A stretch of DNA of 64,000 nucleotides. It comes from Planococcus sp. MSAK28401. GTDB taxonomy: Bacteria; Bacillota; Bacilli; Bacillales_A; Planococcaceae. The notes under the pieces were generated by a model. That model made no database searches. It was not told the DNA's origin and worked only from the letters and a program-made list of their open reading frames with translations. Position numbers and translations under genes: made by a program. Positions 20,539 to 58,258 of the stretch are shown here, in pieces (within the stretch, counting starts at the first letter, position 1; every line of letters starts with the position of its first letter). The DNA lies in assembly GCF_018283455.1 (NCBI RefSeq), contig NZ_JAAMTH010000001.1, forward strand, positions 3,267,501-3,331,500. Reading direction: 5' to 3'.

Positions 20539-20623
20539 GTTCGTAAAAATATAATTTCACAAACGGCAAAAGAGAAGGACCTTCAAATGAAGTTCCTTCT
20601 GCCAATAGCAATATGTAAACTAC
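20539..20623. repeat. P2 composite repeat, copy 1
   Basis: CGTTCGTAAAAATATA leads into a hairpin (AGAAGGACCTTC...GAAGTTCCTTCT) and the tail ATATGTAAACT, the three blocks of the P2 family. A degenerate P1 right half (TAAGTTACATTC) follows at 20671. Confidence 0.65.
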
Positions 20624-20772
20624 AGAAAACTGTCGCAATGCATTTACTCATACCATGCAAGCTTAAACATAAGTTACATTCAAAACACGAATTTCCACCT
20701 CAGTATAACTGGTTTTAAAAGTATGATAAGGTAAAAATATGGAAATCAATCATTAAGAAGGGAGTCAAGATC

Positions 20773-21360
20773 TTGCTAAAGAACCTATATAGAACTTCTA
20801 TGATTTCAATGATTATACTGTTTTTAGTTGTCATAGCAGCCTGCAGCTCCCAAACAGAAGAGACACAACAAGAAGATGTGGAGTCTAATAAAAAAGACGC
20901 TCAAGAAGAGTATCTAGGACGAAATCTTGAAATAGGGGTATTAGGCACACCGCCAGAAATAGACTCAGAGAAAATCACCTTCAGTACTGTGGAAATCGAA
21001 GAGTTGAGCATCGAAACAGTCGAACAATACGATAGTTTTTTCGTAATGGAAGAGTATTTAGAAAGGGCCGCTGATGGTCCCTACACTGAAGTATTTGCAA
21101 ATTCAGATGTCCTCTTTTTCTTCATCAAAACAGAGGCCTATTACTTTCCCTTCGTGAATGATGAGATAAGTTACACAGATTATTCCAAGAGAGTCCATGA
21201 TGAGGAAATCTTTTCTTTAGGTTATTACCCGGCAGCCGAAGAAGGTGCTTCAAGTTGGCAATTTAACATTTTAGCTAAAGATCTTGCTGAGGAAGAATAT
21301 GAAGAAGTTGTAAGAGGGCTTTATTACGAAATGTTCAATGTCATTAGAGATTTAAATTAA
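20773..21360 (+). CDS. Lipoprotein of unknown function
   Basis: A 195-residue lipoprotein with lipobox IAAC (about 21-24), a Gln/Glu-rich linker, and a soluble domain with FSTVEIEELSIETVEQYDSFF and a C-terminal helix (EEEYEEVVRGLYYEMFNVI). The TTG at 20773 is chosen because GGGAG lies eight bases upstream and no ATG fits. The family is not recognised. It opens a run of small genes with binding sites but odd starts, between two P2 repeats. Confidence 0.6.
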   Translation: MLKNLYRTSMISMIILFLVVIAACSSQTEETQQEDVESNKKDAQEEYLGRNLEIGVLGTPPEIDSEKITFSTVEIEELSIETVEQYDSFFVMEEYLERAADGPYTEVFANSDVLFFFIKTEAYYFPFVNDEISYTDYSKRVHDEEIFSLGYYPAAEEGASSWQFNILAKDLAEEEYEEVVRGLYYEMFNVIRDLN

Positions 21361-21471
21361 GTTACACTCTATCTAAATGAACAATCCATGTGAGAAAGAT
21401 TATATTTCTCCAAAATATTTGATCTTCTACGCTGGTGTGCAAGTGCATCCATATTAAGGAGTTAGGTAAAG

Positions 21472-21666
21472 ATGAAAGATAAAATACTGTATTTACTAGA
21501 TATAGGAATAATCGTTATCTCCGGTCTATCGCTACTGATTATTGCTATAAACACTTTTTACTTTGGAAAGGAATTCCCTCAATTTCCTGCTATGATTTTC
21601 GGGATATTAGCATTAGGAACAGTTATAAGAGTCATAACCAAATCAAAAAACGTTAGATATAACTAA
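21472..21666 (+). CDS. Small two-helix membrane protein
   Basis: A 64-residue protein with two membrane segments (about 5-27 and 36-54) and a basic tail. AAGGAG lies about ten bases before the ATG. Function unknown; size and context resemble immunity or transporter-accessory peptides. Confidence 0.6.
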   Translation: MKDKILYLLDIGIIVISGLSLLIIAINTFYFGKEFPQFPAMIFGILALGTVIRVITKSKNVRYN

Positions 21667-21764
21667 TAAGAGAAGAATCCACAAGATTTCACTTTCATAT
21701 TTTCGGTCTTTTATTTAAGGTTTTTGAATGCAACTTACTTAGGATTACAAAGGAGGGATATATT

Positions 21765-21968
21765 ATTAAACACTTTAAGAATAAGCGCTATTGGATACTA
21801 TTGCCCCCTTTTTCAATAGTTTTTATATCACTATTTTTCATTCCTGATGAGTACTACAAATCTTATTTCCCTCCTACAGTAGTCCTTTTACTTTGGGGTA
21901 CATACCATACTTGGAATTTTCTAGCTGATAAAAAGAATCACAAAAAAGATATGGATAATCACTCTTAA
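21765..21968 (+). CDS. Small membrane protein with apparent ATT start
   Basis: A 67-residue frame with two membrane segments (WILLPPFSIVFISLFF and a VVLLLWGTYHTW stretch) and a Lys/His/Asp tail. AAAGGAGGG lies eight bases before ATT at 21765 (another ATT at 21762), and no ATG, GTG or suitably placed TTG precedes the coding stretch. Either ATT is used, as known for infC, or the start codon was lost by mutation. A degenerate P1 half lies at 21723-21749, just upstream. Confidence 0.45.
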   Translation: MKHFKNKRYWILLPPFSIVFISLFFIPDEYYKSYFPPTVVLLLWGTYHTWNFLADKKNHKKDMDNHS

Positions 21969-22028
21969 ACTAGAGAAGTGCGCTAGTTCAAGAAGCTAGA
22001 AATTAATCATATAAAGGACACCAATATT

Positions 22029-22403
22029 ATTGAGAATCTTTCCGGTATATTTAATGCCATCTTGCGAAGATGGTTAGGTATCCAGAAACCAAAAGTATTC
22101 TCTTATAACCATGTAAATGATCAACATAAGAAAGTCGACTGGAGCATCAGAATCTTTTTTATTGCATTGATGGTATTAGGGTATTTCATTAATATGGCAA
22201 GGCTTCCTCAAGAACGCTATTTGCTCTTCGAAACGTGGTTTTTATTATTTGGGCTTATGTTCACGATGGAGATCGCGAGGGTGATCATGGAACGGAAATA
22301 TGCTAAGAATCCCAACGCCTATATTTATACACTTGGCCAGTTGGTTTTTATACTTATAATTATTGTTACACTCTTCTCGACTGACTTTTTCGGTATTTTC
22401 TAA
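22029..22403 (+). CDS. DUF4181-like membrane protein, N-terminally short
   Basis: About 124 residues. From residue about 25 it follows the DUF4181 pattern: FSYNHVNDQHKKVDWSIRI, a membrane helix, an LFETWFLLFGLMF helix, RVIMERKYAKNPNAYIYTLGQ and a last helix ending TDFFGIF. The family usually has an additional N-terminal helix, which is missing here. AAAGGA lies ten bases before ATT at 22029; the first standard start codon is a TTG at 22062 without a binding site. The gene may be 5'-degraded. Function of the family is unknown. Confidence 0.55.
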   Translation: MENLSGIFNAILRRWLGIQKPKVFSYNHVNDQHKKVDWSIRIFFIALMVLGYFINMARLPQERYLLFETWFLLFGLMFTMEIARVIMERKYAKNPNAYIYTLGQLVFILIIIVTLFSTDFFGIF

Positions 22404-22458
22404 CCTGATTGTTCAAGAGTAACCGAATGAAACTTCATTTAGATCTAGTTCCATCTCC

Positions 22459-22650
22459 TTAAGAAATTCCTCTATTTCTTTCTTGGATTTTAACGAGTCT
22501 AATGAGCCAGTATAAAGCAATCCACGGCAGAATAAATTTAGTGGTCCAGGCAATTGCATTCGGGAAAAAAACGATCGAATTAATGCCGATTGCTGATGCT
22601 AGTACCCACAAAAAAGCCATTATTATTACTACTAGTATAAAGTACTTCAA
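22459..22650 (-). CDS. Small hydrophobic membrane protein
   Basis: A 63-residue protein with two membrane segments (about 2-24 and 33-52) and a basic C terminus (KIQERNRGIS). The TTG at 22650 is set by GAGGGTG six bases upstream. Not recognised. A P1 palindrome lies 33 bases upstream of its start. Confidence 0.55.
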   Translation of the reverse strand: MKYFILVVIIMAFLWVLASAIGINSIVFFPNAIAWTTKFILPWIALYWLIRLVKIQERNRGIS

Positions 22651-22683
22651 TTAGTTCACCCTCTCTAAGCAAGGTCTAGTATT

Positions 22684-22717
22684 TGAATGTAACTGAAGTC
22701 ATATTATCTTACATTCA
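22684..22717. repeat. P1 palindrome, copy a
   Basis: TGAATGTAA and TTACATTCA, inverted around 16 bases (inner CTTA/TAAG partly degenerate). It lies between two leftward small genes. Confidence 0.8.
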
Positions 22718-22735
22718 CTTTCTCAAATTACCTTG

Positions 22736-23079
22736 TTATTTTCCTCTTCCAGATAAGCCCGGCTTAGTTCTATGCTCTCTTAAATTATATTTTTCTACTA
22801 TATAATTTTGTATTAAAGTTGCTAAAATCGCAATTAAAAAAACGATGAAACTGTTTATTAAGAGATAGTAACCTACTTGTATGCCATAAAATATTGCAAA
22901 AGCATCACGAATAAGAAATAGCGCTAGTACACCGCCGACTGTCCCAAATAAAATCGCTAATAATAGTATTGTAAAAGCTACAGAATATAGATTTTTCTTT
23001 TTTTTTGTAGGCTATAAACCCAATAATATTTGCGACAATTATAAAAAAAAACCATAAGTATTAAGAAAAAGTAAGTCAT
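22736..23079 (-). pseudogene. Membrane protein gene broken by two homopolymer indels
   Basis: Starting at ATG 23079 the frame breaks twice, at a run of nine A (23043-23051, T on the coding strand) and a run of nine T (22998-23006). Removing one base from each run gives a continuous protein of 113 residues with three or four membrane segments: VFFIIVANIIGFIAY, then FTILLLAILFGTVGGVLALF and SFIVFLIAILATLIQN, ending KPGLSGRGK. Either it is a decayed or phase-variable gene, or both runs were misread. The region has no other explanation. It lies between P1 copies a and b. Confidence 0.6.
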
Positions 23080-23158
23080 TTAACCCTGCCTTACATAATT
23101 TTAGTTTCTTGAATTTCAAAGTCATTGCCATAAAGACTTTCTTTTAATCTTTCGTAGT

Positions 23159-23191
23159 TGAATGTAACTTAAGTACGGTTAGTTACATTCC
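23159..23191. repeat. P1 palindrome, copy b
   Basis: TGAATGTAACTTA and TAGTTACATTC, inverted around a short centre, upstream of the broken membrane-protein gene. Confidence 0.8.
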
Positions 23192-23278
23192 ACTTTTCAA
23201 ACAACAACTCCCTTTAGACTAACACCATCTCCCATAATATGTATATGAAATAATTACCTTTACTTTCTTGAATAAAAT

Positions 23279-23390
23279 CGTTCGTAAGAGTACAGATTCA
23301 CAAAAAGGAGAGAAGATGTGCTTTGCACACCTTCTCTCCTTTGAAATACACATAACTTCCGGTAATCCGACATTATGTAAACGTATGGAT
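23279..23390. repeat. P2 composite repeat, copy 2
   Basis: CGTTCGTAAGAGTACA, then a hairpin (AAAGGAGAGAAGATGTG paired with CACACCTTCTCTCCTTT), then ACTTCCGGTAA and ATGTAAAC. All three P2 blocks are present. The hairpin can act as a terminator. Confidence 0.8.
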
Positions 23391-31484: not shown

Positions 31485-31536
31485 CTGCAGGGTACCTTTC
31501 TTATAAACTGTCCACTAAATGGGACGCGGATCAGCC

Positions 31537-31597
31537 TCTCCTCCCCCTTTCTATTTATGCAGCTTCCGATAACATCGTGATATGTAAACTAAATGGC
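31537..31597. repeat. P2 composite repeat, right part, split by the IS3 element
   Basis: CTCTCCTCCCCCTTT gives the right hairpin arm, followed by GCTTCCGATAAC and ATATGTAAACTAA, the P2 tail. From here to 31897 no gene is supported; the stretch is AT-rich. Confidence 0.65.
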
Positions 31598-32779: not shown

Positions 32780-33003
32780 CCTGTTCACCTCAAAATCATC
32801 ATATCGGAAATAATAGGTGGATTTTTGATTATTCTTGCTAAACTTATAGTCCGTCGGTTTAATTACATGTCTTTAATTTAATTTCAAACGACTTATTAAT
32901 GTTCTGGAGGGTTTCTTCCTTATTTAACTAAGCATATCATTCAATGCCACGAAGCTGATTTTTTAATTCCAGTAAAACGTTACGATACACCCAAAAAAAT
33001 AAC

Positions 33004-33080
33004 CCTTCGTAAAAGTACACTTCATCAAATAAAAAAAGAAGAAGCTTGAGCTTCTTCAGACAAATTTATGATATGCGAGT
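33004..33080. repeat. P2 composite repeat, copy 4
   Basis: CCTTCGTAAAAGTACACTTC, then AAAAAAAGAAGAAGCTTGAGCTTCTTC (a hairpin), then a degenerate tail TTATGATATGC. It lies between the AraC and M23 genes. Confidence 0.7.
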
Positions 33081-33106
33081 GGATATAGCCCTTTCTATCT
33101 TGACTA

Positions 33107-34099
33107 TTACTTAAAGAATTGACCAATTAGGCGAGGAATGAACAATAGTACATCCGACAAAGAAAACGCGATTTCAGCTTTCTCGACGTTATCAAGTGAA
33201 GGCTTGTTTGTATCGTTTTCCAACGGTCCTTGAGTAACCGTATCACCTTGAATTGGCTGGCTCCCATCTGTAAAACGGATACATAGCGATTTGCAGTTAT
33301 GTAGATCCGGAGAATTCATCACCTGAAAGTGAATATGCGGCTCTGATGAATTACCGGAATTGCCGCATAATCCAATAATCTCTCCTTGTTGAACCGTTTC
33401 TCCTTCTTTGACCCGAATTGAATTTTGCTTAAAGTGCGCCACTAAACTGTATTCATTAACAGAATGTTTAATTACGATAAAGTTTCCCGCTGGCTCGGAT
33501 TCATTCATATCGCCGGGCATGTTGTCCTTAATGCCGTCGACTACTTTAACGACTTGGCCATTAGCCGGCGCTGCAACCTCTTTGTTGAATGCATAATAGT
33601 TTTCGTTGCGCTTCCCATTTTCTCGAAATGTCCTTTCCTCCTTCATAACTACCAAATCATAAGCATACCGTTGGGATTCATATACATAGTGATAATTTAG
33701 AAACTCATTCTTGCCGCCCCAGAAAACGAACCACTCATCTGTAATCGGCATGATAAAACTGGTTTGTGTATAATTTCCATCACTTCGGGGATAGACCGTG
33801 TAAGGCTTCAAATAAATGCTGTGGATGATGTGGTCCTCGTCAAAAGAAACAAAAACTGTCTTTTTACCGCTGTTATCCAGCCAAATGCAATGCTTGAATT
33901 CAGCGATAGATGTTTTAGTAGTCATATGGTAATTATCTACACCTTGATTATAGGATTCCGCTAATTCACGGAAGTCTTCGAAGCTGATTAACTCCCTGAA
34001 ATCACTTGAACATTGGTTGTAAATGATTTCAAAATCGCCGTGTAAAAATCGGTTACCAAATTCATTAGGCTCTATCACTTCATCTATTTGCAGCCTCAT
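33107..34099 (-). CDS. M23-type peptidase with N-terminal DUF3887-like domain
   Basis: A 330-residue protein. Residues about 10-105 resemble the DUF3887 fold (FLHGDFEIIYNQCSSDFRELISFEDFRELAE). Residues about 145-290 are an M23/LytM domain: QRYAYDLVV near the first zinc site, SLVAHFKQNSIRVKEGETVQQGEIIGLCGNSGNSSEPHIHF with the HxH motif. No signal peptide is visible, unusual for a cell-wall hydrolase but common in this DUF3887-M23 subfamily. The ATG at 34099 follows AAGGAGG by eight bases. Possibly a peptidoglycan endopeptidase. Confidence 0.78.
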   Translation of the reverse strand: MRLQIDEVIEPNEFGNRFLHGDFEIIYNQCSSDFRELISFEDFRELAESYNQGVDNYHMTTKTSIAEFKHCIWLDNSGKKTVFVSFDEDHIIHSIYLKPYTVYPRSDGNYTQTSFIMPITDEWFVFWGGKNEFLNYHYVYESQRYAYDLVVMKEERTFRENGKRNENYYAFNKEVAAPANGQVVKVVDGIKDNMPGDMNESEPAGNFIVIKHSVNEYSLVAHFKQNSIRVKEGETVQQGEIIGLCGNSGNSSEPHIHFQVMNSPDLHNCKSLCIRFTDGSQPIQGDTVTQGPLENDTNKPSLDNVEKAEIAFSLSDVLLFIPRLIGQFFK

Positions 34100-34290
34100 T
34101 AAAGTTTCCTCCTTATTCCAACTATTAGTATCAACATGATAGTTCAGGATATATAAGTATACGAGCAACGTTCGGCTAAAGTTTCTGTTTTGTCGTTTCT
34201 ACTAAGTTTAGAATCCTGACTTTTAAAAATACTGACATTTAACAGTTGATCAGAGCTATCGAAATAACTCCTCTAATTTTCATTTGAATC

Positions 34291-34380
34291 TGTTCGTAAA
34301 AGTACACTACTACAATAAAAAAAGAGGAGAAATTTCAATTGAAGCTCCTTCTCTTGAGGTCTTGATATGTAAAATATACA
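34291..34380. repeat. P2 composite repeat, copy 5 (left flank of array 1)
   Basis: TGTTCGTAAAAGTACACTAC, then a hairpin (AAGAGGAGAAATTTCAATTG paired with CAATTGAAGCTCCTTCTCTT-type bases), then ATATGTAAA. A leader of about 110 bases follows that is homologous to the one after 54455. Confidence 0.8.
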
Positions 34381-34399
34381 CTTCACAATTCAGTCTCTA

Positions 34400-34491
34400 A
34401 AACCTCATAGAATAATCTTTTGAATGTATCATTTGTTCTAGCAAGTTCAATTTCGCTCGGTCTTCTGATTAAGTCAATGAAATGAAGAATC
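34400..34491. other. Array leader sequence, array 1
   Basis: Conserved with 54464-54550: both contain CTCTAAA, CTTTTGAATGTATCATTT, TTCTAGCAAGTTCAA and TTAAGTCAATG in the same order and spacing, directly before the first P1 palindrome. No open frame is shared. It may be a recombination, replication or promoter region; function unknown. Confidence 0.7.
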
Positions 34492-34525
34492 TGAATGTAA
34501 CTTACTTACACTTATGTTACATTCA
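34492..34525. repeat. P1 palindrome, copy c
   Basis: TGAATGTAACTTA and TTACATTCA arms; inner CTTATG slightly off consensus. First P1 of array 1, same variant as copy g of array 2. Confidence 0.9.
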
Positions 34526-34562
34526 AAAACCGTTTAGCATATTCGATATTTTATTACTTATA

Positions 34563-34571
34563 TGTTATACT
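34563..34571 (+). promoter_or_regulatory. Extended -10 element of higBA
   Basis: TG-T-TATACT ends seven bases before the ATG at 34578, so the transcript would start at or next to the start codon. No ribosome-binding site precedes the ATG. A leaderless toxin mRNA is inferred. Confidence 0.55.
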
Positions 34572-34577
34572 TGATGT

Positions 34578-34946
34578 ATGGAAAAGTCGAAATGGACAGT
34601 CAATGCATATAAAAAAGACAATGGCGAAAAACCTGCTGCCGAGTTTCTAGATTCGCTTCCTGCAAAGGAAAAGGCAAAGGTGTTACGCACCATTCAATTA
34701 CTGGGAGAGTTTGGTCCGATGCTGCGAATGCCACATCGAAGGCCAATCGATCAGGACATCTATGAACTTCGGACGATTTTAGGCAACAATATCTTTCGCG
34801 TGTTCCATTTCCATTACGAAAATGGCGAATTCATCTTGTTAAATGGTTTCCGAAAGAAAACTCAAAAAACACCGCAGAGTGAAATCGATCGTGCCAAACG
34901 CTATCGAGATGATTATTTACGACAAAAAGGGAGGGATTCGATATGA
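34578..34946 (+). CDS. higB: HigB/RelE-type toxin (Gp49-like)
   Basis: A 122-residue ribosome-dependent mRNA interferase of the phage-derived Gp49-like/HigB group (MEKSKWTVNAYKKDNGEKPAAEFLDSLPAKEKAK is abbreviated here to its motifs: PAAEFLDSL, LLGEFGPMLRMPHRRPI, YELRTILGNNIFRVFHFHY, FRKKTQKTP). It overlaps the antitoxin gene by four bases in toxin-first order, as is normal for higBA. Its start appears leaderless. This is the first unit of array 1 and the only rightward one. Confidence 0.88.
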   Translation: MEKSKWTVNAYKKDNGEKPAAEFLDSLPAKEKAKVLRTIQLLGEFGPMLRMPHRRPIDQDIYELRTILGNNIFRVFHFHYENGEFILLNGFRKKTQKTPQSEIDRAKRYRDDYLRQKGRDSI

Positions 34947-35269
34947 GTTTTTTGGAAAGCTACGTAGCAGAAAACTTAAAAGATCCGGAATTCGCCAAGG
35001 AGTGGGCGGACAGTGAACTGGAATACACACTCGCTCGTAACATCATTCGCCAACGAAATCGGCTAGGACTTACGCAAAGCGAAGTCGCTTTGCGTATGCA
35101 CACCAAGCAAAACGTAGTATCTCGCATTGAAAATGGAAGTCAGAATGTGACCCTGAAAAGTTTGAAATCGCTAGCTGCAGCCCTTCAGACGGATGTTCCT
35201 TCCCTGATGCAAGAATATGACGAGAAGCAAGACGAGAAAAAAACCAGTTCTGATCTCGTGAAAAGTTAA
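34943..35269 (+). CDS. higA: HigA antitoxin (XRE family)
   Basis: A 108-residue protein with an XRE helix-turn-helix (about 36-90, RLGLTQSEVALRMHTKQNVVSRIENG) that neutralises HigB and represses the operon. The N-terminal part (DPEFAKEWADSELEYTLARNIIRQR) is typical of antitoxins of Gp49-like toxins. The ATG overlaps the toxin stop and GGGAGG lies upstream. A strong terminator follows. Confidence 0.9.
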   Translation: MSFLESYVAENLKDPEFAKEWADSELEYTLARNIIRQRNRLGLTQSEVALRMHTKQNVVSRIENGSQNVTLKSLKSLAAALQTDVPSLMQEYDEKQDEKKTSSDLVKS

Positions 35270-35283
35270 CAATAGTGCATGGA

Positions 35284-35327
35284 ATAACCCCCGATTGGCC
35301 AGACGGCTGATCGGGGGTTATCTTTGA
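35284..35327 (+). terminator. Terminator of higBA
   Basis: ATAACCCCCGAT and ATCGGGGGTTAT pair perfectly, followed by a T-rich stretch. Confidence 0.9.
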
Positions 35328-35330
35328 TTT

Positions 35331-35364
35331 TGAATGTAACTTATTTGCTAATAAGTTACATTCA
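35331..35364. repeat. P1 palindrome, copy d
   Basis: Canonical: TGAATGTAACTTA, eight bases, TAAGTTACATTCA. Between the higBA unit and the leftward gene at 35378. Confidence 0.95.
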
Positions 35365-35377
35365 TTTTAAGAATTAA

Positions 35378-35839
35378 TTAATATTTAACAAAGGTAGTTA
35401 CACCATGCTCGGTAATGAAATTTCGATGGCTCAGTTCCTCTACCCACTTCTTCGGGTTCAACTGATAAAATCCAGATGAATCCCGGTATGTATAAGTTCC
35501 TGTATTCACCTCGATTGGTTCCGGATTTGATTGCATCTTTTCCTTGTATCTGAGGAATGCATGCTGATTTGGCACATGATAAACCTCCAGTACATCTCCG
35601 ATCTCCATATACTCTTCAATGTACTTTAGAAATAGCCGATTCCCTATCCCCTCCGCTTCGTAAATATATGGCAGAGAAAAAACGCCCTGAATTTCCTGCA
35701 GCCAACTGTCAACTGCTTCATGTACAGTAAAAAACATAAAATCTTCTTCTGTCGCAAATACTGTGCGCTGATTATATTCTTGAATCTCTGTTGGAATTTT
35801 GAATGGTTTTGAGGATGCTAGGAACGTAATTTCCGTCAT
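35378..35839 (-). CDS. Hypothetical cassette protein, 153 residues
   Basis: A soluble protein with strand-rich N terminus (MTEITFLASSKPFKIP), a central acidic region and a repeated aromatic pattern near the C terminus (GTYTYRDSSGFYQLNPKKWVEELSHR). Not recognised. GGGAG lies seven bases before the ATG. It is the only gene between P1 copies d and e, so it fills one cassette. Size and single-gene setting resemble orphan immunity proteins; no toxin is adjacent. Confidence 0.65.
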   Translation of the reverse strand: MTEITFLASSKPFKIPTEIQEYNQRTVFATEEDFMFFTVHEAVDSWLQEIQGVFSLPYIYEAEGIGNRLFLKYIEEYMEIGDVLEVYHVPNQHAFLRYKEKMQSNPEPIEVNTGTYTYRDSSGFYQLNPKKWVEELSHRNFITEHGVTTFVKY

Positions 35840-35885
35840 TTTTCAACTCCCTTTGCTTAGAAGTTTTATAAGGTATTCAGTATTT

Positions 35886-35918
35886 TGAATGTAACTTAAT
35901 TCATATTAAGTTACATTC
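35886..35918. repeat. P1 palindrome, copy e
   Basis: TGAATGTAACTTA and TTAAGTTACATTC arms, between two leftward single genes. Confidence 0.95.
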
Positions 35919-35924
35919 GGTTTA

Positions 35925-36371
35925 TCAGAATCGAGTGAAGTATGAATACTTGATATTGAACTTCCTCAACAAAATATCTTCTAGTTTAGTTAAATACTGG
36001 TCTACTGCTTTTAACAACACCTCAGAAACTATCGTGCTTTCGTGTTCAAATTCTTGCCAAATTGAAAAGAGCTGCCATTCATTTTCTCTTTTTCTAACAA
36101 AAGATAAAATAGGGCCTTCCCTTTCATCATGTTCCATCGTGAAGTAATAAAAATCATTTTCTCCTTCGGAATCTTTCACTCTCCACTCTTTTAAAGCAAC
36201 ACCCAGTTCAAGCAACGCTAAGGACGGTTCATGAAAGAAACACGAACGACCGATATGAATGGTTAATTCCCCTTGCACATCAATCAATAATTTTCCGTTT
36301 TTCTGTCGAATTAGCTTTTTATCCAAGTTCAATAACGGATCCAATTCAAAATCAATAGCCAGATTCTCCAT
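35925..36371 (-). CDS. Cassette protein with a paralogue in array 2
   Basis: A 148-residue soluble protein. From residue about 40 it is closely similar (by eye about 70 percent identical) to the frame at 54983: SCFFHEPSLALLELGVALKEWRVKDS, YYFTMEHDEREGPIL and LFSIWQEFEHE recur with few changes. The N-terminal 40 residues (ELDPLLNLDKKLIRQKNG) have no counterpart in the other copy. A binding site lies upstream of the ATG. The family looks like a small immunity-type protein; function unknown. It fills the segment between P1 copies e and f. Confidence 0.72.
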   Translation of the reverse strand: MENLAIDFELDPLLNLDKKLIRQKNGKLLIDVQGELTIHIGRSCFFHEPSLALLELGVALKEWRVKDSEGENDFYYFTMEHDEREGPILSFVRKRENEWQLFSIWQEFEHESTIVSEVLLKAVDQYLTKLEDILLRKFNIKYSYFTRF

Positions 36372-36413
36372 GCAATCACTCCTTCAGTACGTTTCTACTG
36401 GAATTTTTCAGTG

Positions 36414-36447
36414 TGAATGTAACTTAACTGCACTTAAGTTACATTCA
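36414..36447. repeat. P1 palindrome, copy f
   Basis: TGAATGTAACTTA, eight bases, TTAAGTTACATTCA-type arm. Between two leftward single genes; inner bases match copy j of array 2. Confidence 0.95.
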
Positions 36448-36465
36448 CATCCTCAACTTTATTGT

Positions 36466-36798
36466 CTATTTTTCAACTAACTCCGCTGCCCATTCTTTGA
36501 ACCAATCGGGTGGTAATTCCAATTTGGTGAGGTCCATTTTCATAAGCTGTTCATGTGAATAAAACTCGTACCAATATAAATCCCATTGTGCTTCAATATC
36601 CCGGGCAATACCAAAAGCTAATTGATCCTGGTCGTCTAAATCTTCTTCATCCCAAGCCATCGTTAAATTATCGCACCACATACAAAAATCAACTTGAGGA
36701 AATTTGTTTTCTTTCTTGCAAATCGTATCTAAAAGAGTCTTAAGATTTTCATATGAATAGGGAAGATTGATGCTGGTCTTATTCAAATTCCACTCCAC
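36466..36798 (-). CDS. Hypothetical cassette protein, 110 residues
   Basis: A soluble, acidic, Trp-rich protein (FCMWCDNLTMAWDEEDLDDQDQLAFGIARDIEAQWDLYWYEFY is its central part, cited here by MAWDEEDLDD and QWDLYWYEFY). The GTG at 36798 is chosen because GAGGAGG lies eight bases upstream. Not recognised. It is the last gene of array 1, followed by the bare P2 palindrome at 36923. Confidence 0.6.
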   Translation of the reverse strand: MEWNLNKTSINLPYSYENLKTLLDTICKKENKFPQVDFCMWCDNLTMAWDEEDLDDQDQLAFGIARDIEAQWDLYWYEFYSHEQLMKMDLTKLELPPDWFKEWAAELVEK

Positions 36799-36922
36799 AA
36801 CAAAGTCCTCCTCTTTTAATACGGTTCATCAGCAGAAAATTTAATGATTTTCATTTTTTACTAATAATACCATGTTGGAAAGTTGAAAATTATAATCGAA
36901 GAAAATTTATCAGAAAATAACC

Positions 36923-36948
36923 GTTCGTAAAAGTACACTTTTACGAAC
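36923..36948. repeat. P2 palindrome only (right flank of array 1)
   Basis: GTTCGTAAAAGT-AC-ACTTTTACGAAC, perfect 12-base arms. The hairpin and tail of full P2 copies are absent. The same bare form ends array 2 at 58092. Confidence 0.9.
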
Positions 36949-37045
36949 ACATAAGAAAATTAAAAGCTTTAATTAGACGCATGTGTAACGTTTTTTGAAA
37001 TTAATTTTATAAATATGTTACAATGTAAGAAAGAGGTGAGCAACC

Positions 37046-37696
37046 ATGGAACTCTACCAATATCTATTAGACGAATACGGATACGATGAACCCATTCTTA
37101 CCGAGCAACTAAAAGAGGATCTCCAGCTGAATCCCAGTACACTCAGGCAGTATATCAAGCGCCTTTCTGACAAGGGGCTGCTTGCGAAAGTCCAGAATGG
37201 CATCTATTTCATTCCCAAAAAGAAACCGATGTTTGGCTCGGCTATGCTAGATACAGACCAGATTGTTCGAAAGAAATTCTTGGAGAACCGGGATCGTATC
37301 ATCGGTTACAAGTCAGGCACCAATTTCGCCAATGCCTTGGGCCTGACTTCCCAAACAGCTGCGGTTGCGACTATCGTGACAAATAATGCTTCTGCTGCCA
37401 AGCGAGAAGTGAACATCTACAAAAAACGGTTTATCATTCGAAAACCGAGAGTGAACGTGAATAGATCCAACTATAAGCTTCTCCAAGTGCTCGATCTATT
37501 GAACAATTACGAGCAGTACAGCGAAAAACCGCTCGAAGCGGCGAAAGAGAAAGTCCTGACATATCTAGCGGACGTCTCAATGAATGAACGGGAAGTGAAG
37601 GGATATCTCAATGCATACCCGATAAAAACAAAACTGAGAGTATACGAATTGGGGTTATTTGATGCGATTGCACGAAGAGAACGAGCTGTTCAATGA
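37046..37696 (+). CDS. AbiEi/DUF6088-type antitoxin
   Basis: A 216-residue protein with an N-terminal winged helix (about 5-60, LTEQLKEDLQLNPSTLRQYIKRLSDKGLL) and a DUF6088-type C-terminal domain (GYKSGTNFANALGLTSQTAAVATIVTNN). Such proteins are the antitoxins of AbiE-type (type IV) systems and repress their own operon. GAAAGAGGTG precedes the ATG and a TACAAT-like -10 lies near 37019. It overlaps the toxin gene by 38 bases. Confidence 0.85.
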   Translation: MELYQYLLDEYGYDEPILTEQLKEDLQLNPSTLRQYIKRLSDKGLLAKVQNGIYFIPKKKPMFGSAMLDTDQIVRKKFLENRDRIIGYKSGTNFANALGLTSQTAAVATIVTNNASAAKREVNIYKKRFIIRKPRVNVNRSNYKLLQVLDLLNNYEQYSEKPLEAAKEKVLTYLADVSMNEREVKGYLNAYPIKTKLRVYELGLFDAIARRERAVQ

Positions 37697-38612
37697 TTTG
37701 GTCCGGTCAGCAGCTGCAGCGTATGGACTGCAGAATTTCCAGATTGAAAAAGATTATTACGTATCCCTGCTTCTGAAGCAACTGGTCTACATCTTCCCTG
37801 GCGTTGTATTTAAGGGCGGAACGTCACTCTCGAAGTGCTACGATGTCATCAAGCGTTTTTCGGAGGACTTGGATCTGAGCGTTCCGCTTGGAGAGAGCAA
37901 TAAGCTACCAAGAAGCGATAAAAGGAAATTGAAAATCGCGATTGAATCTGTAATTGAGGACCTCGGATTTATACTGTTAAATCCTGACGAAATCCGATCA
38001 GGTCGGGAATTCAATGAGTACGAAATTGCCTATCGTAAAGCATTTAAAGGCGACGACGAGATGTCCCCTCACATTCTTGTGGAAACGAATGTCGCCTATA
38101 AACCCTTTCCATTCGAACAGCTTGGGGTAAGCAATTACATCACGAAGTTCGTTATGGCTGCAGAAGGCGACGCAACGGAAAAAGAACGGTTTTTGGATGA
38201 ATATGAGATGAGACCATTTGCGGTGAATGTGCAGACAATTGACCGGACGTTTCTTGATAAAATTTTTGCCATCTGCGATTATTACGAAAAAAAAGAAAGC
38301 ACTCGCTATTCAAGGCACTTATACGATCTTCATATGATTTGGAGAAGTGGATTCGTCGATGCAGCAGGATTGAAACTGCTGATTTCTGAGGTGATCGAGA
38401 TTCGAAGAGATGGTCGGGACACGGCTTCCTGTCAGCCTGGTTATGAATTAAAAAACACATTGAACGAAATCATTCGTACCGCTTTCTATAAGCAGGACTA
38501 TAACCGCAATACGAAAACGTTCCTGGCAGAAGATGTGTCTTATGATGAAACCATCAATAGCCTGAAAAAAATTATCGATAGCGACTTTTTACCAACTGTC
38601 ATCAAAATCTAA
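37659..38612 (+). CDS. abiEii: AbiEii-type nucleotidyltransferase toxin
   Basis: A 317-residue protein of the AbiEii/AbiGii toxin family with the nucleotidyltransferase signature VFKGGTSLSKCYDVIKRFSEDLDL (GGTSLSK, then D-x-D). It uses NTPs to modify a cellular target, in known cases tRNA acceptor ends, and aborts phage infection when the antitoxin fails. The last codon is ATC and the stop TAA uses two bases of the inverted repeat of the following IS, so the IS defines its C terminus. The length is normal for the family, so few residues can be lost. Confidence 0.85.
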   Translation: MMRLHEENELFNDLVRSAAAAYGLQNFQIEKDYYVSLLLKQLVYIFPGVVFKGGTSLSKCYDVIKRFSEDLDLSVPLGESNKLPRSDKRKLKIAIESVIEDLGFILLNPDEIRSGREFNEYEIAYRKAFKGDDEMSPHILVETNVAYKPFPFEQLGVSNYITKFVMAAEGDATEKERFLDEYEMRPFAVNVQTIDRTFLDKIFAICDYYEKKESTRYSRHLYDLHMIWRSGFVDAAGLKLLISEVIEIRRDGRDTASCQPGYELKNTLNEIIRTAFYKQDYNRNTKTFLAEDVSYDETINSLKKIIDSDFLPTVIKI

Positions 38613-54354: not shown

Positions 54355-54455
54355 GTTCGTAAAAGTACACTTCTACGAATAAAAAGAGGAGGAACTTTAA
54401 ATGAAGTTCCTCCTTTCAATATATTTTGAAATACTATGCCCTTAATATGTCGGCT
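54355..54455. repeat. P2 composite repeat, copy 7 (left flank of array 2)
   Basis: CGTTCGTAAAAGTACACTTC-TACGAA palindrome, then a hairpin (AGAGGAGGAACTTTAAATG with GAAGTTCCTCCTTT), then a degenerate tail TTAATATGTCGG. The leader at 54464 follows. Confidence 0.85.
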
Positions 54456-54463
54456 CTAAAGCC

Positions 54464-54550
54464 TTATCTTATAAGCTTTTGAATGTATCATTTTTTCTAG
54501 CAAGTTCAACTTTTCTTCTTCTTCATATTAAGTCAATGGAATCAGGGATT
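54464..54550. other. Array leader sequence, array 2
   Basis: Homologous to 34400-34491 (CTCTAAA, CTTTTGAATGTATCATTT, TTCTAGCAAGTTCAA, TTAAGTCAATG). It joins the P2 copy to the first P1 of array 2. Confidence 0.7.
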
Positions 54551-54584
54551 TGAATGTAACTTACTTAGACTTATGTTACATTCA
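54551..54584. repeat. P1 palindrome, copy g
   Basis: TGAATGTAACTTA and TTATGTTACATTCA arms, the same variant as copy c, which also follows the leader. Confidence 0.95.
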
Positions 54585-54600
54585 GATTCACTAATTTTTC

Positions 54601-54903
54601 CTAGGGTTCTGAAATTCCATTAGCAACCATTAACAAGAATATGAAGCCCGACAATACTAAGAAGAAAACGCCGTTTGCAAGTACACTAAAGAGAATAATC
54701 GGTATCTTTTTTGTTCTGATCCCCAAAAACATAGCGACCAAAAAACCAATGTCGATTAATAAATACAACACAATACTGATCCATAAATTCGTATTGGGAA
54801 ACTGTCTGAAAATCAGCAGAATCGCTAATGCAACAACAGGCAAAATCATGGTTAGAATAATTGGTTTTGCTTCGTTCTGACCTTCTTGAACTTGAGTTCT
54901 CAT
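54601..54903 (-). CDS. Three-helix membrane protein (cassette gene)
   Basis: A 100-residue protein with three membrane segments (about 14-32, 40-60, 68-95). GGAGG lies seven bases before the ATG. Not recognised. It is the single gene between P1 copies g and h; a small membrane immunity or transport role is possible but unproven. Confidence 0.65.
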   Translation of the reverse strand: MRTQVQEGQNEAKPIILTMILPVVALAILLIFRQFPNTNLWISIVLYLLIDIGFLVAMFLGIRTKKIPIILFSVLANGVFFLVLSGFIFLLMVANGISEP

Positions 54904-54943
54904 GCTTTCACCTCCGGTTCCTTTCCTTTTGTAGAAACCACTT

Positions 54944-54977
54944 TGAATGTAACTTAATTGCTAATAAGTTACATTCA
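54944..54977. repeat. P1 palindrome, copy h
   Basis: TGAATGTAACTTA, eight bases, TAAGTTACATTCA; canonical. Confidence 0.95.
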
Positions 54978-54982
54978 GATTG

Positions 54983-55324
54983 CTATAACTTAATAAAATC
55001 TGAGTACTGGATATCGAACCTCTTGATTAGTGTTTCTTCTAACTCAGTCAAATATCGATCCACTGCTTTCAGTAAAATATCGGTGGTTATCGTCTCTTCA
55101 TGTTTAAATTCTTGCCAAATCGAAAAGAGATGCCACTTATTTTCGCTTTCTTTAATAAATGCTAAGATTGGTCCTTCTCTTTCATCATGCTCCATTGTGA
55201 AGTAATAAAAGTTGGCGATTGCATTTGAATCTTTCACCCGCCATTCTTTCAAATGGACTCCTAATTCAAGTAGCGCAAGAGCAGGATCTCTAAAGAAGCA
55301 AGAATGATCAATTGAAATATTCAA
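54983..55324 (-). pseudogene. 5'-truncated paralogue of the array 1 cassette gene at 35925
   Basis: About 113 residues closely match residues 38-148 of the protein at 35925 (SCFFRDPALALLELGVHLKEWRVKDS, YYFTMEHDEREGPIL, LFSIWQEFKHEETI). Homology continues upstream of the TTG at 55324 (VEGELNIS against VQGELTIH) and stops near 55340. There the sequence changes into a 34-base palindrome, and no ribosome-binding site or start remains. The N-terminal third has been replaced, so it is probably inactive. Confidence 0.7.
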
Positions 55325-55352
55325 TTCTCCCTCTACATTGGGCGCACTTACA

Positions 55353-55386
55353 CACCAATAAAATACGATCGTATTTTATTGGTGTC
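55353..55386. repeat. Perfect 34-base palindrome at the array 2 break point
   Basis: ACACCAATAAAATACGA and its exact complement TCGTATTTTATTGGTGT, with no spacer. It marks the boundary where the cassette gene is cut. It could be a recombination site or the end of an inserted segment. Confidence 0.75.
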
Positions 55387-55489
55387 GTGCTCCACTTTTA
55401 CAAGTGGTTTAAAATTCGCTGCACTCATGTATTAGTTAAGGTCAAAATCTATTAAAAGAGAGAAGTAGGAAGGAAGAAAAGAGCATAAG

Positions 55490-55614
55490 GAAAACATGAT
55501 ATCACTTGTCGTGATATATCAGGCAGAGCCTGATGTTTTAGTGATATCGTGTTTAATTAGTAATTGCACAGTTTATGCATATCTTTCAATTTGAAATTGT
55601 ATAGTTTGTGCATA
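55490..55614. repeat. Cluster of nested inverted and direct repeats
   Basis: AACATGATATCAC (left) pairs with GTGATATCGTGTT; inside, ATCAGGC-AGA-GCCTGAT. Then two 20-base direct repeats, AATTGCACAGTTTATGCATA (55562) and AATTGTATAGTTTGTGCATA (55595), 33 bases apart. No gene overlaps. The layout is like a resolution or replication control site; no such protein is encoded nearby. Confidence 0.55.
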
Positions 55615-55699
55615 CTGGGTCCAGTTATAAAAATGGTTACCTGATAATGTTTTTATTCTTAGCATACGCTATAAGTGTTTTGGTGGCGGTACCCGTATC

Positions 55700-55733
55700 A
55701 AAAAAAGCGCTCCTTGAATAAGAAGCGCTTTTC
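55700..55733. terminator. Terminator of the small membrane-protein gene at 55741
   Basis: AAAAGCGCT and AGCGCTTTT pair around an 11-base loop with A/T tracts on both sides. Confidence 0.75.
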
Positions 55734-55740
55734 TAACTGA

Positions 55741-55914
55741 TCAGTTTTTTGTAGACTTTGAAAAGTTTATTCTTGATCCAATCGCGATAACAATAATTGC
55801 TACTAATCCTATGATGTTAATAGTTGTTCTAGTGGTTTCACTATCAACAAATAGATTAATAAAAAATGAACCTGCTACTATCAATACAAGAAGAAAAAAT
55901 AGACTTTTTTTCAT
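55741..55914 (-). CDS. Small two-helix membrane protein beside a secreted peptide gene
   Basis: A 57-residue protein with two membrane segments (LFFLLVLIVAGSFFINLF and IIGLVAIIVIAIG) and a basic C terminus. AGGAGG lies five bases before the ATG. It is divergent from the secreted protein gene at 56001, which suggests a toxin/immunity pairing. No family is recognised. Confidence 0.6.
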   Translation of the reverse strand: MKKSLFFLLVLIVAGSFFINLFVDSETTRTTINIIGLVAIIVIAIGSRINFSKSTKN

Positions 55915-56000
55915 AATGTCCTCCTATTAAATCCAAAATATGTTAACGTTATTTGTGAGGAAAATAGTTACATACAAGTACAGTGTAAAGGAGTACTCTA

Positions 56001-56618
56001 ATGAAGAAAAGTCTAAAACAATTGGTTATTGCAATGTGTTTATCTTTAATTTTTACTACAGTCTTTGCTATACCAGTAGCTAGAGCAGAAAAAAACGCTG
56101 ATGTTTCTGATGAACAAATTAATTCAGAAGTTGAACAAATGAAGGAAACATTAGATCCTTTATTAAAGTTAATTGACCAAATGCCGGAAGAAGTTGCTGA
56201 ACAAGGCATTGACTCTGGTGTGAAATGGTTAAATCAAAATAAAGGTGATGAATTTAAAGAATATAAATTTGTGGCCGATGGCGAAAATTTAAAAACTATT
56301 GAAATAAAAGAACCTGGTCAAATATCTACAATGAGCGTTTGGTCATGTATTTCTAGTGCTGGTAAAGCTCTAGTGATCAATGCGTTACCATGGGCGAAAA
56401 TTTTAAAAGTGAAGAAAGCTGCCAAATTAATGGGTGGTTTAAACTCTATGACAAAAACTATTATCACGGCATACAAACACCAAAGAAACTTAGGTCTTTC
56501 TAAAACAAGTTCAATTAAAAAAGCTGTAACTTTATCAACAAAAGCATTACCAAGTGAAACACAAAAAGCTGTTTTAGAGTTTTTTAGTTTAGGTGATGTA
56601 GTAGATAATTGTTTTTAA
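56001..56618 (+). CDS. Secreted bacteriocin-like protein (SdpC-like architecture)
   Basis: A 205-residue exported protein: signal peptide (about 1-30, cleaved after ARA), an acidic helical propeptide-like region (31-105), then a hydrophobic/basic helical part (about 110-165, WSCISSAGKALVINALPWAKI and KKAAKLMGGLNSMT) and a C-terminal DNCF. Two Cys bracket the last third. Length and order resemble SdpC-type killing factors, but sequence identity is not evident by eye. AAAGGAG lies seven bases before the ATG. It lies within the segment that interrupts array 2. Confidence 0.5.
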   Translation: MKKSLKQLVIAMCLSLIFTTVFAIPVARAEKNADVSDEQINSEVEQMKETLDPLLKLIDQMPEEVAEQGIDSGVKWLNQNKGDEFKEYKFVADGENLKTIEIKEPGQISTMSVWSCISSAGKALVINALPWAKILKVKKAAKLMGGLNSMTKTIITAYKHQRNLGLSKTSSIKKAVTLSTKALPSETQKAVLEFFSLGDVVDNCF

Positions 56619-56643
56619 AGACAAACATCAACCGATTGCGATT

Positions 56644-56701
56644 GAACTGAACCCCAAATGGCAGACACTTTAAAAAGTGCCCCCCATTTGGGGTTCAGTT
56701 C
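56644..56701. repeat. IS3-end-like palindrome used as terminator
   Basis: GAACTGAACCCCAAATGG and CCATTTGGGGTTCAGTTC are perfect 18-base inverted arms around an inner CACTTTAAAAAGTG. It starts 26 bases after the secreted-protein gene and matches the left-end hairpin of the IS3 element at 30045. Confidence 0.75.
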
Positions 56702-56799
56702 AGTACCCTTTTGCGAGCGTTTTTTTATTACGGTATCGCGAAAGTGGTAGGTATATATTTGATGAATTTCAGGAAAGCATCCTTTTTTACATCACGTTT

Positions 56800-56833
56800 T
56801 GAATGTAACTTAATTCACAATAAGTTACATTCA
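56800..56833. repeat. P1 palindrome, copy i
   Basis: TGAATGTAACTTA, eight bases, TAAGTTACATTCA; canonical, seven bases from the stop of the next leftward gene. Confidence 0.95.
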
Positions 56834-56839
56834 TCGCCG

Positions 56840-57298
56840 TTATTCTATGCCCTGATTTATTTTAGTAACTTTCAGATAAAGTTTAAATTGCTTATAAATC
56901 TGTTCAATATTTTCATTAGATCTGAGTTCAGCATCACGTTCAATGCCATGAACTAGGGCTTTTAGTAAATCGTTAAGCTGGCACTTATTTATAAAAATTC
57001 TTTCAGTTTTTAAATCATCACCTTTTACATAAATGGTTAGGGTCACATTTCTTTCATCGATTAATTCAAATTCCCATCTGTATTCAATCGGTTCATCCAA
57101 CATAATAAAGTCGATTTTCTTCCTCGGAAATGGAGCCAGATTCGGGACTATCTGATAAACAGCATTCAGTAATTCTTCTAAAGGATTATTGAGGAGGTAG
57201 GAACAGAGAAACTCAAAATTGTGACTGCCAATACAAATGTGTCCTGATGCCCAGCCATTATCGAGGTGTTTATACTGGAACTTAACGTTATGTGACAT
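56840..57298 (-). CDS. Hypothetical cassette protein, 152 residues
   Basis: A soluble protein starting MSHNVKFQYKHLDNGWASG, with FEFLCSYLLNNPLEELLNAVYQIVP and a strand-rich middle (YRWEFELIDERNVTLTIYV), ending in a long charged helix. The ATG at 57298 follows GGAGG by nine bases; the frame to 57364 only reads through P1 copy j. The pattern recalls small Imm-type immunity proteins, but no family is assigned. It fills the segment between P1 copies i and j. Confidence 0.65.
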   Translation of the reverse strand: MSHNVKFQYKHLDNGWASGHICIGSHNFEFLCSYLLNNPLEELLNAVYQIVPNLAPFPRKKIDFIMLDEPIEYRWEFELIDERNVTLTIYVKGDDLKTERIFINKCQLNDLLKALVHGIERDAELRSNENIEQIYKQFKLYLKVTKINQGIE

Positions 57299-57344
57299 TA
57301 ACTTTTCCTCCTCCTTTGCTTTAAATTCTCTTAATTTAATAAAG

Positions 57345-57378
57345 CGAATGTAACTTAACTGCACATAAGTTACATTCA
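57345..57378. repeat. P1 palindrome, copy j
   Basis: GAATGTAACTTA, about eight bases, TAAGTTACATTCA; inner bases like copy f of array 1. Confidence 0.95.
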
Positions 57379-57437
57379 GTTCCTAGCGTTTCCTTGAAAC
57401 CTTGCTCTTAGATGCCACAGTGACTTATGTACTTCAG

Positions 57438-57953
57438 TTAATCCCAGTGATTAAAGATGATTTGTCCTATCGTTTCAGGTTTCCAATAAGCGATTTGTTC
57501 CAATTCGGCACTGTTTAATTCCATCTTCAATAACGAACTTTGGTCAACTGAAGCGTTGAGTACCGCTGTACCGGTTACCTGATAGAAAGAATCAAAAAGG
57601 GCATGAAGGGCTGGCACATCGATGAACTTAATATCCCCAAGTTCAACGGAAGATGCAAAAGTCAGGTAAGGGTAATGCTCATTCAACAGGATATAAATTA
57701 ACTCCTTGGATATCTCGACTTGAGCACAGTAAAAATTGGCGGGATATTGAGGTGGACTTATGCTTATAACTCTTCCTCTAATGCGAGATACAAAATCGAA
57801 GCACAATTGCTTGAATTGCTTCCCGTTTAGACTTCGTGGTTCACTATCCTCAGCCCGATAAAAACCTGTGACACCACTGGGGAGATTCATACTGTGTTCA
57901 CCACCCATTTCGCATAAATTAGTGTATGGCAAATTAGCTTTACCGTTCGCCAT
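57438..57953 (-). CDS. Hypothetical cassette protein, 171 residues
   Basis: A soluble protein beginning MANGKANLPYTNLCEMGGEHSMN, with GFYRAEDSEPRSLNGKQFKQLCFDFVSRIRG and a C-terminal SLLKMELNSAELEQIAYWKPETIGQIIFNHWD. The ATG at 57953 has only a weak AAGAAG upstream; the frame is open to 57983. Not recognised. Last gene of array 2, next to the bare P2 palindrome. Confidence 0.6.
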   Translation of the reverse strand: MANGKANLPYTNLCEMGGEHSMNLPSGVTGFYRAEDSEPRSLNGKQFKQLCFDFVSRIRGRVISISPPQYPANFYCAQVEISKELIYILLNEHYPYLTFASSVELGDIKFIDVPALHALFDSFYQVTGTAVLNASVDQSSLLKMELNSAELEQIAYWKPETIGQIIFNHWD

Positions 57954-58091
57954 TTCAAATCTTCTTATTGAACTGAAATACAAAAATTTAGGGCATCAGT
58001 CAAAGCTTTCTACTTACAAAAATTTCTAGCTTATATATTCTTAATATACATAGACACTATGGGAAAGGCTAGTTCAATTTGCAATTAAAGC

Positions 58092-58117
58092 GTTCGTAAA
58101 AGTACACTTTTACGAAC
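58092..58117. repeat. P2 palindrome only (right flank of array 2)
   Basis: GTTCGTAAAAGT-AC-ACTTTTACGAAC, identical to the right flank of array 1 at 36923. Confidence 0.9.
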
Positions 58118-58148
58118 AGTTTAATAATGGCTAAAAACAATCAAAAGA

Positions 58149-58213
58149 GCGTTCGTAAATGTACCAAACGACTTTGCGAACGTTCGCGAAGTTGCATAAA
58201 CTTTTCCGAACGC
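58149..58213. repeat. Second P2-related inverted repeat with nested palindrome
   Basis: GCGTTCG and CGAACGC form the outer arms; inside, GCGAAC-GTTCGC (58176-58187) is a perfect palindrome. It starts 32 bases after the P2 palindrome and lies just upstream of a TATAAT element at 58222. Confidence 0.6.
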
Positions 58214-58258
58214 TTTTCAGGTATAATAGGAGGAAAGAATCATTTATAGAGGTAAATT

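Follow-up and report, generated by a model that had tools for sequence, protein, structure and literature searches.

What moves the single genes that lie between near-identical palindromes in Planococcus sp. MSAK28401, and which enzyme would act on these palindromes? The question is raised by a window of 64,000 nt (assembly GCF_018283455.1, contig NZ_JAAMTH010000001.1, positions 3,267,501-3,331,500 of the forward strand), in which positions 34291-36948 hold an array that begins and ends with one palindrome, P2, and is subdivided by copies of another, P1. The order is P2, leader, P1, a higBA-like gene pair, P1, gene, P1, gene, P1, gene, P2, and all sites were found as a preliminary description of this stretch had listed them. 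Here we argue that a plasmid-borne tyrosine recombinase uses P1 as its core site, and that cassettes are exchanged between sites of like type through plasmid cointegrates, a reading to which we assign a probability of roughly three in four. In what follows, C denotes contigs of the window's genome, L sequence stretches compared with it, and G the Planococcaceae genomes compared; the genome collection contains one genome per species, so that the comparisons are between species.

Cassettes between P1 sites

P1 is a 34-bp palindrome with the geometry 13-8-13, that is, two 13-base arms around an 8-base centre, as had been described. The four copies in the array, denoted array 2 (Table 1), have 0-1 arm mismatches, each with an 8-base centre. 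The half-arm of P1 (up to 2 mismatches) matches the window 27 times versus 2.4 expected, with none of 100 shuffles equally high, and the P2 half-site (up to 3 mismatches) matches 12 times versus 0.54 expected. The claim that the same plan recurs at 54355-58117 (array 3) held for the layout and for the leader, which is homologous to that of array 2, but not in full: slot B of array 3 is 1.8 kb long and contains more than one open reading frame (ORF), and the P2 at 58092 is not bare because further P2-like repeats come after the palindrome.

Cassettes, segments, pairs and site orders were counted in the window and in stretches L016-L031, L044-L052 and L083-L200, leaving out L001-L015, L032-L043 (repeats of stretches from the same genome) and L053-L082 (3-kb pieces). 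Of the 234 distinct P1-P1 segments, 198 contain one ORF under our ORF rule and 13 contain none. The 221 main ORFs form 139 families, including 95 singletons, and 132 cargo representatives match 69 Pfam families, with at most two members each among the 25 families listed. Defence as the main theme of the cargo was set aside, given that PADLOC yielded eight families, with one member each, among the 132 cargo proteins.

Homologous cassettes have the same orientation in 118 of 118 pairs, and in 105 pairs the match covers at least 90% of the longer member. Among the 75 pairs with at least 85% identity, both 300-bp flanks are unrelated in 61, one flank is related in 6, both are related in 2 (one of these being a repeat within contig C4), and sequence is missing on one side in 6. 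The threshold for related flanks was 120; among as many as 200 random flank pairs, a single one exceeded it (score 207; 99th percentile 30). For example, the slot C cassette of array 2 is 98.4-98.6% identical to cassettes of L096, L118 and L176, with unrelated flanks, and 95.1% identical to that of L199; the contigs of L096, L118 and L176 carry the recombinase gene described below as well, and L199 belongs to a 596-kb contig. Within the same genome, the slot A cassette of array 2 is 94.4% identical across 805 bases to the slot A cassette of contig C7. Because the homology stops at P1 and the flanks are unrelated, these comparisons identify P1-P1 segments as mobile cassettes bounded by P1.

At one locus, the array is seen with different cargo in another species. 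In L241 (genome G010), the genes flanking array 2 are kept on both sides (91% and 87%), including the two genes at 36984-38612, which we take to be AbiEi/AbiEii-like, and the leader is homologous (69%). The array of L241 contains P1 types 1, 3 and 4, there is no further DNA match between the flanks, and the P2-P2 segment 33005-34291 of the window is missing. By this alignment, L241, which alone carries the point, is a shared locus with both flanking genes kept and different cargo in the array. Another stretch, L240 (G028), retains segment 33005-34291 and the next P2 (85%), followed by an array of four sites with other cargo. It was not counted as a second shared locus because its right flank is unmatched and the matching left neighbour is itself a P2-P2 segment, so that L240 may represent another locus. 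The flank search for array 3 yielded L242 and L243, neither of which holds P1 or P2.

The original suggestion of a cassette array is thus supported by whole P1-gene units recurring with unrelated flanks and by the different cargo of L241. Nor are P1 copies mostly isolated repeats in a static gene context: 109 of 153 chains include at least two typed sites, some chains ending at the edges of stretches, and gene turnover is seen.

The P1 centres comprise four main types, CTGCAC, TTCACA, TTGCTA and a looser TTA group, plus a tail of others. Neighbouring sites share their orientation in 225 of 229 cases; their types ascend in 200 cases, are the same in 11 and descend in 14, compared with a mean of 84 and a maximum of 106 ascending in shuffles. 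Strictly ascending chains account for 88 of the 109 (shuffle mean 16.6, maximum 27), and an earlier tally with other type rules gave 183 ascending versus 26 not. Of 71 pairs of homologous cassettes in the standard slots, 56 keep their slot (25.5 expected; reached in 0 of 5000 shuffles). Homologous pairs are not independent of each other, and the safer test is at the family level, for which two repeat copies of C4 cassettes were also dropped: 20 of 29 cassette families are confined to one slot (expected 7.9, shuffle maximum 18). Genes face the first site in 36 of 45 cassettes between types 2 and 3 and in 65 of 70 between types 3 and 4. Judged from their order, the centres look like addresses, with types 1-2-3-4 in succession, and homologous cassettes tend to stay in their slot, though not strictly.

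Could P1 and P2 be ordinary intergenic palindromes, such as terminators, operators or elements resembling miniature inverted-repeat transposable elements, with the genes turned over by homologous recombination in flanking genes? P1 sites do lie close to gene 3' ends (median distance 35 bp), and unrelated short repeats are common in the region. However, the abrupt end of homology at P1 between unrelated flanks, the uniform orientation of homologous cassettes, the ordered centres and the linkage to a recombinase all make this explanation highly improbable.

The window's genome contains 53 P1 sites (up to 3 mismatches; 0 in a reversed-pattern control). Across the family Planococcaceae, where the preliminary description had proposed to look, P1 was found in 46 of 261 genomes, 45 of those in the genus Planococcus, and it is present in 45 of the 46 genomes of the genus, the window's genome included (reversed-pattern controls 0). 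A scan of named genome contigs identified at least 118 stretches with P1, 114 of these among contigs titled Planococcus or Planomicrobium. P1 sites are also present in L094, L184 and L086, whose record titles place them outside the genus: Gracilibacillus, Exiguobacterium and a contig titled Bacteroidetes metagenome-assembled genome. A phage origin of P1 was set aside as viral contigs gave no exact P1 match. L249 and L250 (contig C2 of G001, 31,009 bp) contain a unit of about 15.5 kb in two nearly identical copies; the P1 types recur several times per unit, which is longer and less ordered than the usual arrays.

A small tyrosine recombinase beside P1 sites

The preliminary description noted that no integrase is present, which is true of the window, but six candidate recombinase copies are encoded on small contigs of the same genome. 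They were recognized among 12 matches to PF00589 as a single small type (open frames of 193-199 aa), and genes of this type lie beside P1 sites on contigs C3, C4 (3 copies), C6 and C7, oriented away from the array. These contigs are probably plasmids. Pfam matches include Rep_3, Mob_Pre and MerR_1 on C3 and Rep_3 and MerR_1 on C6, and like genes were recognized by eye on C4 and C7. The recombinase search also returned at least 15 Planococcus plasmid records, of which five were examined (L044, L045, L046, L048 and L050), all with 1-4 P1 sites. Genomes in which the recombinase was detected (E 1e-40) have more P1 sites (median 12.5 versus 10 in the others; Mann-Whitney p 0.015), partly because the plasmids carry arrays themselves.

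The small recombinase consists of 188 aa and matches PF00589 (3.4e-22) over residues 32-175, the catalytic domain only. The pattern R, K, H-x-x-R, H, Y of the tyrosine recombinase catalytic domain is present, and residues R48, K72, H136, R139, H162 and Y171, which we take to be the catalytic ones, are invariant across 17 aligned homologues. The closest solved sequences are of the XerA, XerD and XerH types.

Homologues were picked from 60 of 2324 records; the alignment set of 17 is without B. smithii (L203) and with C7, and the palindrome set of 17 is the reverse. In 10 of the 17, down to 46% identity, a 13-8-13 palindrome upstream of the gene scores above all 100 shuffles. The upstream palindromes in Solibacillus, Peribacillus, B. 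velezensis and B. badius plasmids depart from P1 in the inner arm. By sequence, then, the recombinase is linked to cognate palindromes in part of its family. One 13-8-13 palindrome each was found beside the homologue in a Solibacillus plasmid and in a Peribacillus plasmid, and the system may plausibly derive from a plasmid ancestor with a single site. Such an arrangement resembles plasmid multimer resolution of the Cre/lox kind, which also combines a plasmid recombinase with a 34-bp 13-8-13 site; unlike there, P1 has been multiplied to four ordered types with cargo in between.

One Lysinibacillus plasmid, annotated with cfr and lsa(B), encodes a recombinase 88% identical to that of the window's genome and carries a P1 site, so that parts of the system reach beyond the genus. 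L047, which covers the first 33.6 of the 81 kb of plasmid pFN9D from Lysinibacillus capsici, shows repeating units of about 13.5 kb, all annotated with rep and cfr/lsa(B). Two of these units contain the small recombinase together with a P1 site, and the recombinase matches 7 places in the record; the repetition is either a tandem multimer or an assembly effect.

The position of its gene and the cognate palindromes suggest that this plasmid-borne tyrosine recombinase is the missing recombinase of P1, and the predicted enzyme would cut P1.

Proposed exchange between arrays, and related systems

The first P1 site of an array appears to differ from the internal ones in its context. An accessory element, TGAATGTATCATTT (up to 3 mismatches), accompanies 83 of 146 first sites versus 3 of 241 internal sites, and in many arrays, on plasmid-like and on long contigs, it is located 70-72 bases ahead of the first site.

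In the route that we propose, small Rep_3 plasmids would carry the recombinase gene and, next to it, an array with in most cases no more than four P1 sites, and chromosomes and larger plasmids would hold arrays without the gene, served in trans. With types 1, 2, 3 and 4 in order, neighbouring sites differ, and for this reason a cassette would not readily be lost as a circle. A plasmid array and a chromosomal array would pair at sites of the same type, the centre being the address; a crossover at one type would fuse the plasmid with its target, and a crossover at another type would resolve this cointegrate, swapping the cassettes in between. The first site, together with the accessory element some 71 bases upstream, would be a specialized primary site, and around a number of chromosomal arrays P2 would form a second, serine-resolvase-like layer that bounds larger units. 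The rule of orientation and order, the slot preference and the recombinase gene beside arrays on small contigs are features of the compared sequences, and from these we infer the cointegrate route and the role of the accessory element.

Arrays on long contigs show probable footprints of exchange with plasmids. On plasmids, site 4 is followed by a MerR-like gene. In L240, broken remnants of this gene adjoin site 4 of the array; in L245, taken from a 3.77-Mb contig, a full-length match to the plasmid gene (55%) starts within 10 bases of site 4; and L166 and L195 contain short fragments as close to site 4 as in L245. Contig C4 comprises two copies of a 7.03-kb plasmid, 6 single-base gaps apart, and one copy of C3, with one difference in 8393, all joined at or beside site 1.

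Several results weigh against the proposed route. The recombinase was detected (E 1e-40) in 18 of 46 genomes, and 27 of the 45 P1 genomes have no such enzyme in their assembly. Among the 17 homologues, two have an upstream palindrome that is no better than the best shuffle and five have none above the shuffles. Over all slot labels, slot fidelity is partial: of 114 pairs, 54 have both site types in common, 14 the right one only, 6 the left one only and 40 neither. The test of centre order is not fully independent: the window's genome, from which the types were initially read before their refinement with all data, was itself among the sequences tested. Only 14 of 135 leaders have the P2 half-site (up to 2 mismatches) no more than 300 bases from the first site, mostly near -200, and both window arrays are among the 14. 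C4 was set aside as proof of site-specific recombination because its two plasmids share an identical stretch of 327 bp that begins with site 1, which permits homologous recombination, and an assembly effect is also possible.

The accessory element and the slot data bear on another route, similar to that of integrons, in which cassettes would excise as circles with their own right-hand P1 and would enter the array at the first site, where the accessory element lies; exchange between arrays would then be minor. This route would fit the association of the element with first sites, the excess of the right site among pairs sharing one type only (14 versus 6) and the recombinase gene that points away from the array, as intI does in integrons. 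Nevertheless, insertion at one end should not keep the 1-2-3-4 order, and a cassette whose ends have unlike centres should be less prone to form a circle, judging from known tyrosine recombinases; we consider this route rather unlikely.

A still more doubtful alternative is that P1 sites are pdif-like and are acted upon by the host XerC and XerD, as in the dif modules of Acinetobacter, the small recombinase only resolving plasmid multimers. The absence of the small enzyme from many assemblies would be explained in this way, the chromosome encodes two tyrosine recombinases of 302 and 305 aa, which are XerC/XerD candidates by size, and one arm of some first sites is TTATGTTACAT, close to an XerD arm. 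Yet XerCD is general whereas P1 is nearly confined to one genus; the palindromes upstream of part of the small recombinase family diverge with the enzyme; and separate dif-like 28-mers were noticed by eye in many P2-containing leaders. In a published account, dif modules are genes between short recombinase sites on Acinetobacter Rep_3/OrfX plasmids, with higBA modules, cointegrates and reactions between like spacers (PMC13141974), a setting that speaks for XerCD in the present case too. The same account attributes these modules to the host XerC/XerD and describes distinct XerC and XerD arms, a 6-bp spacer and alternating C and D modules (PMC13141974), whereas P1 has two like arms, without any mismatch in many copies. 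An assignment of P1 to pdif sites was rejected on these grounds, the arms being symmetric and neighbours agreeing in orientation, so that there is no alternation.

How, then, does the proposed system relate to the known ones? The likeness to dif modules extends to genes between short sites on Rep_3 plasmids, higBA, cointegrates and like spacers or centres (PMC13141974). The P1 system differs in the 13-8-13 symmetry and single orientation of its sites, in the order of the centre types and in a candidate recombinase of its own; it also has arrays on chromosomes, the accessory element at the first site and the outer layer of P2.

Assignment to integrons was also rejected: the recombinase scores 33.7 bits against the integron integrase family TIGR02249 of NCBIfam, far below the cut-off of 265. 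The attC core is GTTRRRY, and P1, inspected by eye, holds GTTACAT instead, so the remark that P1 lacks this core was right. Integrons share with the P1 system cassettes of mostly one gene (198/234 here), diverse cargo, mobility of single cassettes, a specialized first site, a recombinase gene pointing away and some arrays without the enzyme. P1 sites differ as symmetric palindromes of ordered types, and genes in slots 2-3 and 3-4 mostly face the first site. The closest parallel to the ordering is found in engineered systems, namely recombinase-mediated cassette exchange and MultiSite cloning, where incompatible centres of otherwise like sites set order and exchange; the P1 system would be a natural case. 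To our knowledge, such an addressing rule is known only from engineered cassette exchange.

The P1 system works like dif modules and integrons but lacks defining traits of both, and it could with fair probability form a separate class. We see even odds that it is a third independent natural gene-cassette class beside these two, with a catalytic-domain-only plasmid recombinase, symmetric sites with ordered addresses at their centres, cassette exchange slot by slot between itinerant plasmids and docking arrays on chromosomes, and nesting in a serine-resolvase system that moves larger units. No description of this cassette system was found in the open text of PubMed Central, subscription journals and preprints being outside the scope. 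If correct, our reading would provide a Gram-positive counterpart of integrons and dif modules, present in 45 of 46 genomes of one genus, and raises a testable general question: does nature use centre mismatch to keep a cassette array stable yet exchangeable?

P2 boundaries and features of the window

P2 bounds both window arrays. Inspection by eye of 106 P2 contexts, which include places counted twice in overlapping pieces, revealed two main forms, P2 with a hairpin, often with the dif-like 28-mer, and P2 with a second palindrome. In 4 of 22 sites that we chose among these for a closer look, including contigs C9 and C10 of the same genome, P2 and the second palindrome are directly upstream of a serine-resolvase ORF, which in these four loci begins at base 169 from P2 (subsites assigned by eye); the one ORF of the four that was run against Pfam matches PF00239 (1.1e-25). 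P2 itself looks like the subsite at which a serine resolvase crosses over in its res site, and the predicted resolvase would act at P2. The layout of Tn3-kind res sites is similar in that these four loci combine a palindromic, crossover-like P2 and further repeats upstream of a resolvase gene; unlike in Tn3, lone P2 copies without further repeats are found at segment ends.

Among 33 P2-P2 segments, for which L044-L052 were left out as well, leader homologies start at P2. Right-end homologies of L122 with L133, of L084 with both, and of L100 with L120 end at P2 or within 17 bases of it, and that of L137 with L156 does so on one side only.

The dif-like 28-mer, ACTTCCGATAA-N6-ATATGTAAACT, was recognized by eye after P2 and the hairpin in many leaders (for example, L111:1699, L133:7738 and L134:5401) and is a possible Xer site.

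Table 1. Features of the P1 arrays and their surroundings in the 64,000-nt window
Feature	Position	Strand	Remarks
P2, left boundary of array 2	34292..34317	+	exact in the GTTCGTAAAAGTACAC half, degenerate in the right half; similar to subsite I of a serine-resolvase res site
Leader of array 2, between P2 and first P1	34318..34491	+	hairpin 34322-34355, then accessory element
Accessory element, array 2	34421..34434	+	TGAATGTATCATTT; starts 71 bases ahead of first P1
P1 type 1, array 2	34492..34525	+	centre CTTACACT
Slot A cassette, array 2	34526..35330	+	Gp49/RelE-type toxin and helix-turn-helix (HTH) antitoxin, ORFs 34578-34946 and 34943-35269
P1 type 2, array 2	35331..35364	+	centre TTTGCTAA
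Slot B cassette, array 2	35365..35885	-	single gene 35378-35839; no family match
P1 type 3, array 2	35886..35919	+	centre ATTCATAT
Slot C cassette, array 2	35920..36413	-	DUF7878 gene 35925-36371
P1 type 4, array 2	36414..36447	+	centre ACTGCACT
Slot D, array 2	36448..36922	-	single gene 36466-36798; no family match
P2, right boundary of array 2	36923..36948	+	perfect 12-2-12 palindrome
P2-P2 segment left of array 2	33005..34291	-	one gene 33107-34168; missing between flanking gene and array in L241
P2, left boundary of array 3	54355..54380	+	
Accessory element, array 3	54480..54493	+	
P1 type 1, array 3	54551..54584	+	
P1 type 2, array 3	54944..54977	+	
P1 type 3, array 3	56800..56833	+	
P1 type 4, array 3	57345..57378	+	
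res-like site, right boundary of array 3	58092..58215	+	P2 palindrome and further P2-like repeats (by eye); no resolvase gene after it
Probable decayed third array	20539..23305	+	bounded on either side by a degenerate P2; remnants of P1 at 20670, 21358, 21725, 22684 and 23159; small genes

Short repeats at about 31530-31593 and 32993-33063 of the window have numerous matches across many Planococcus genomes and form an unrelated repeat family.

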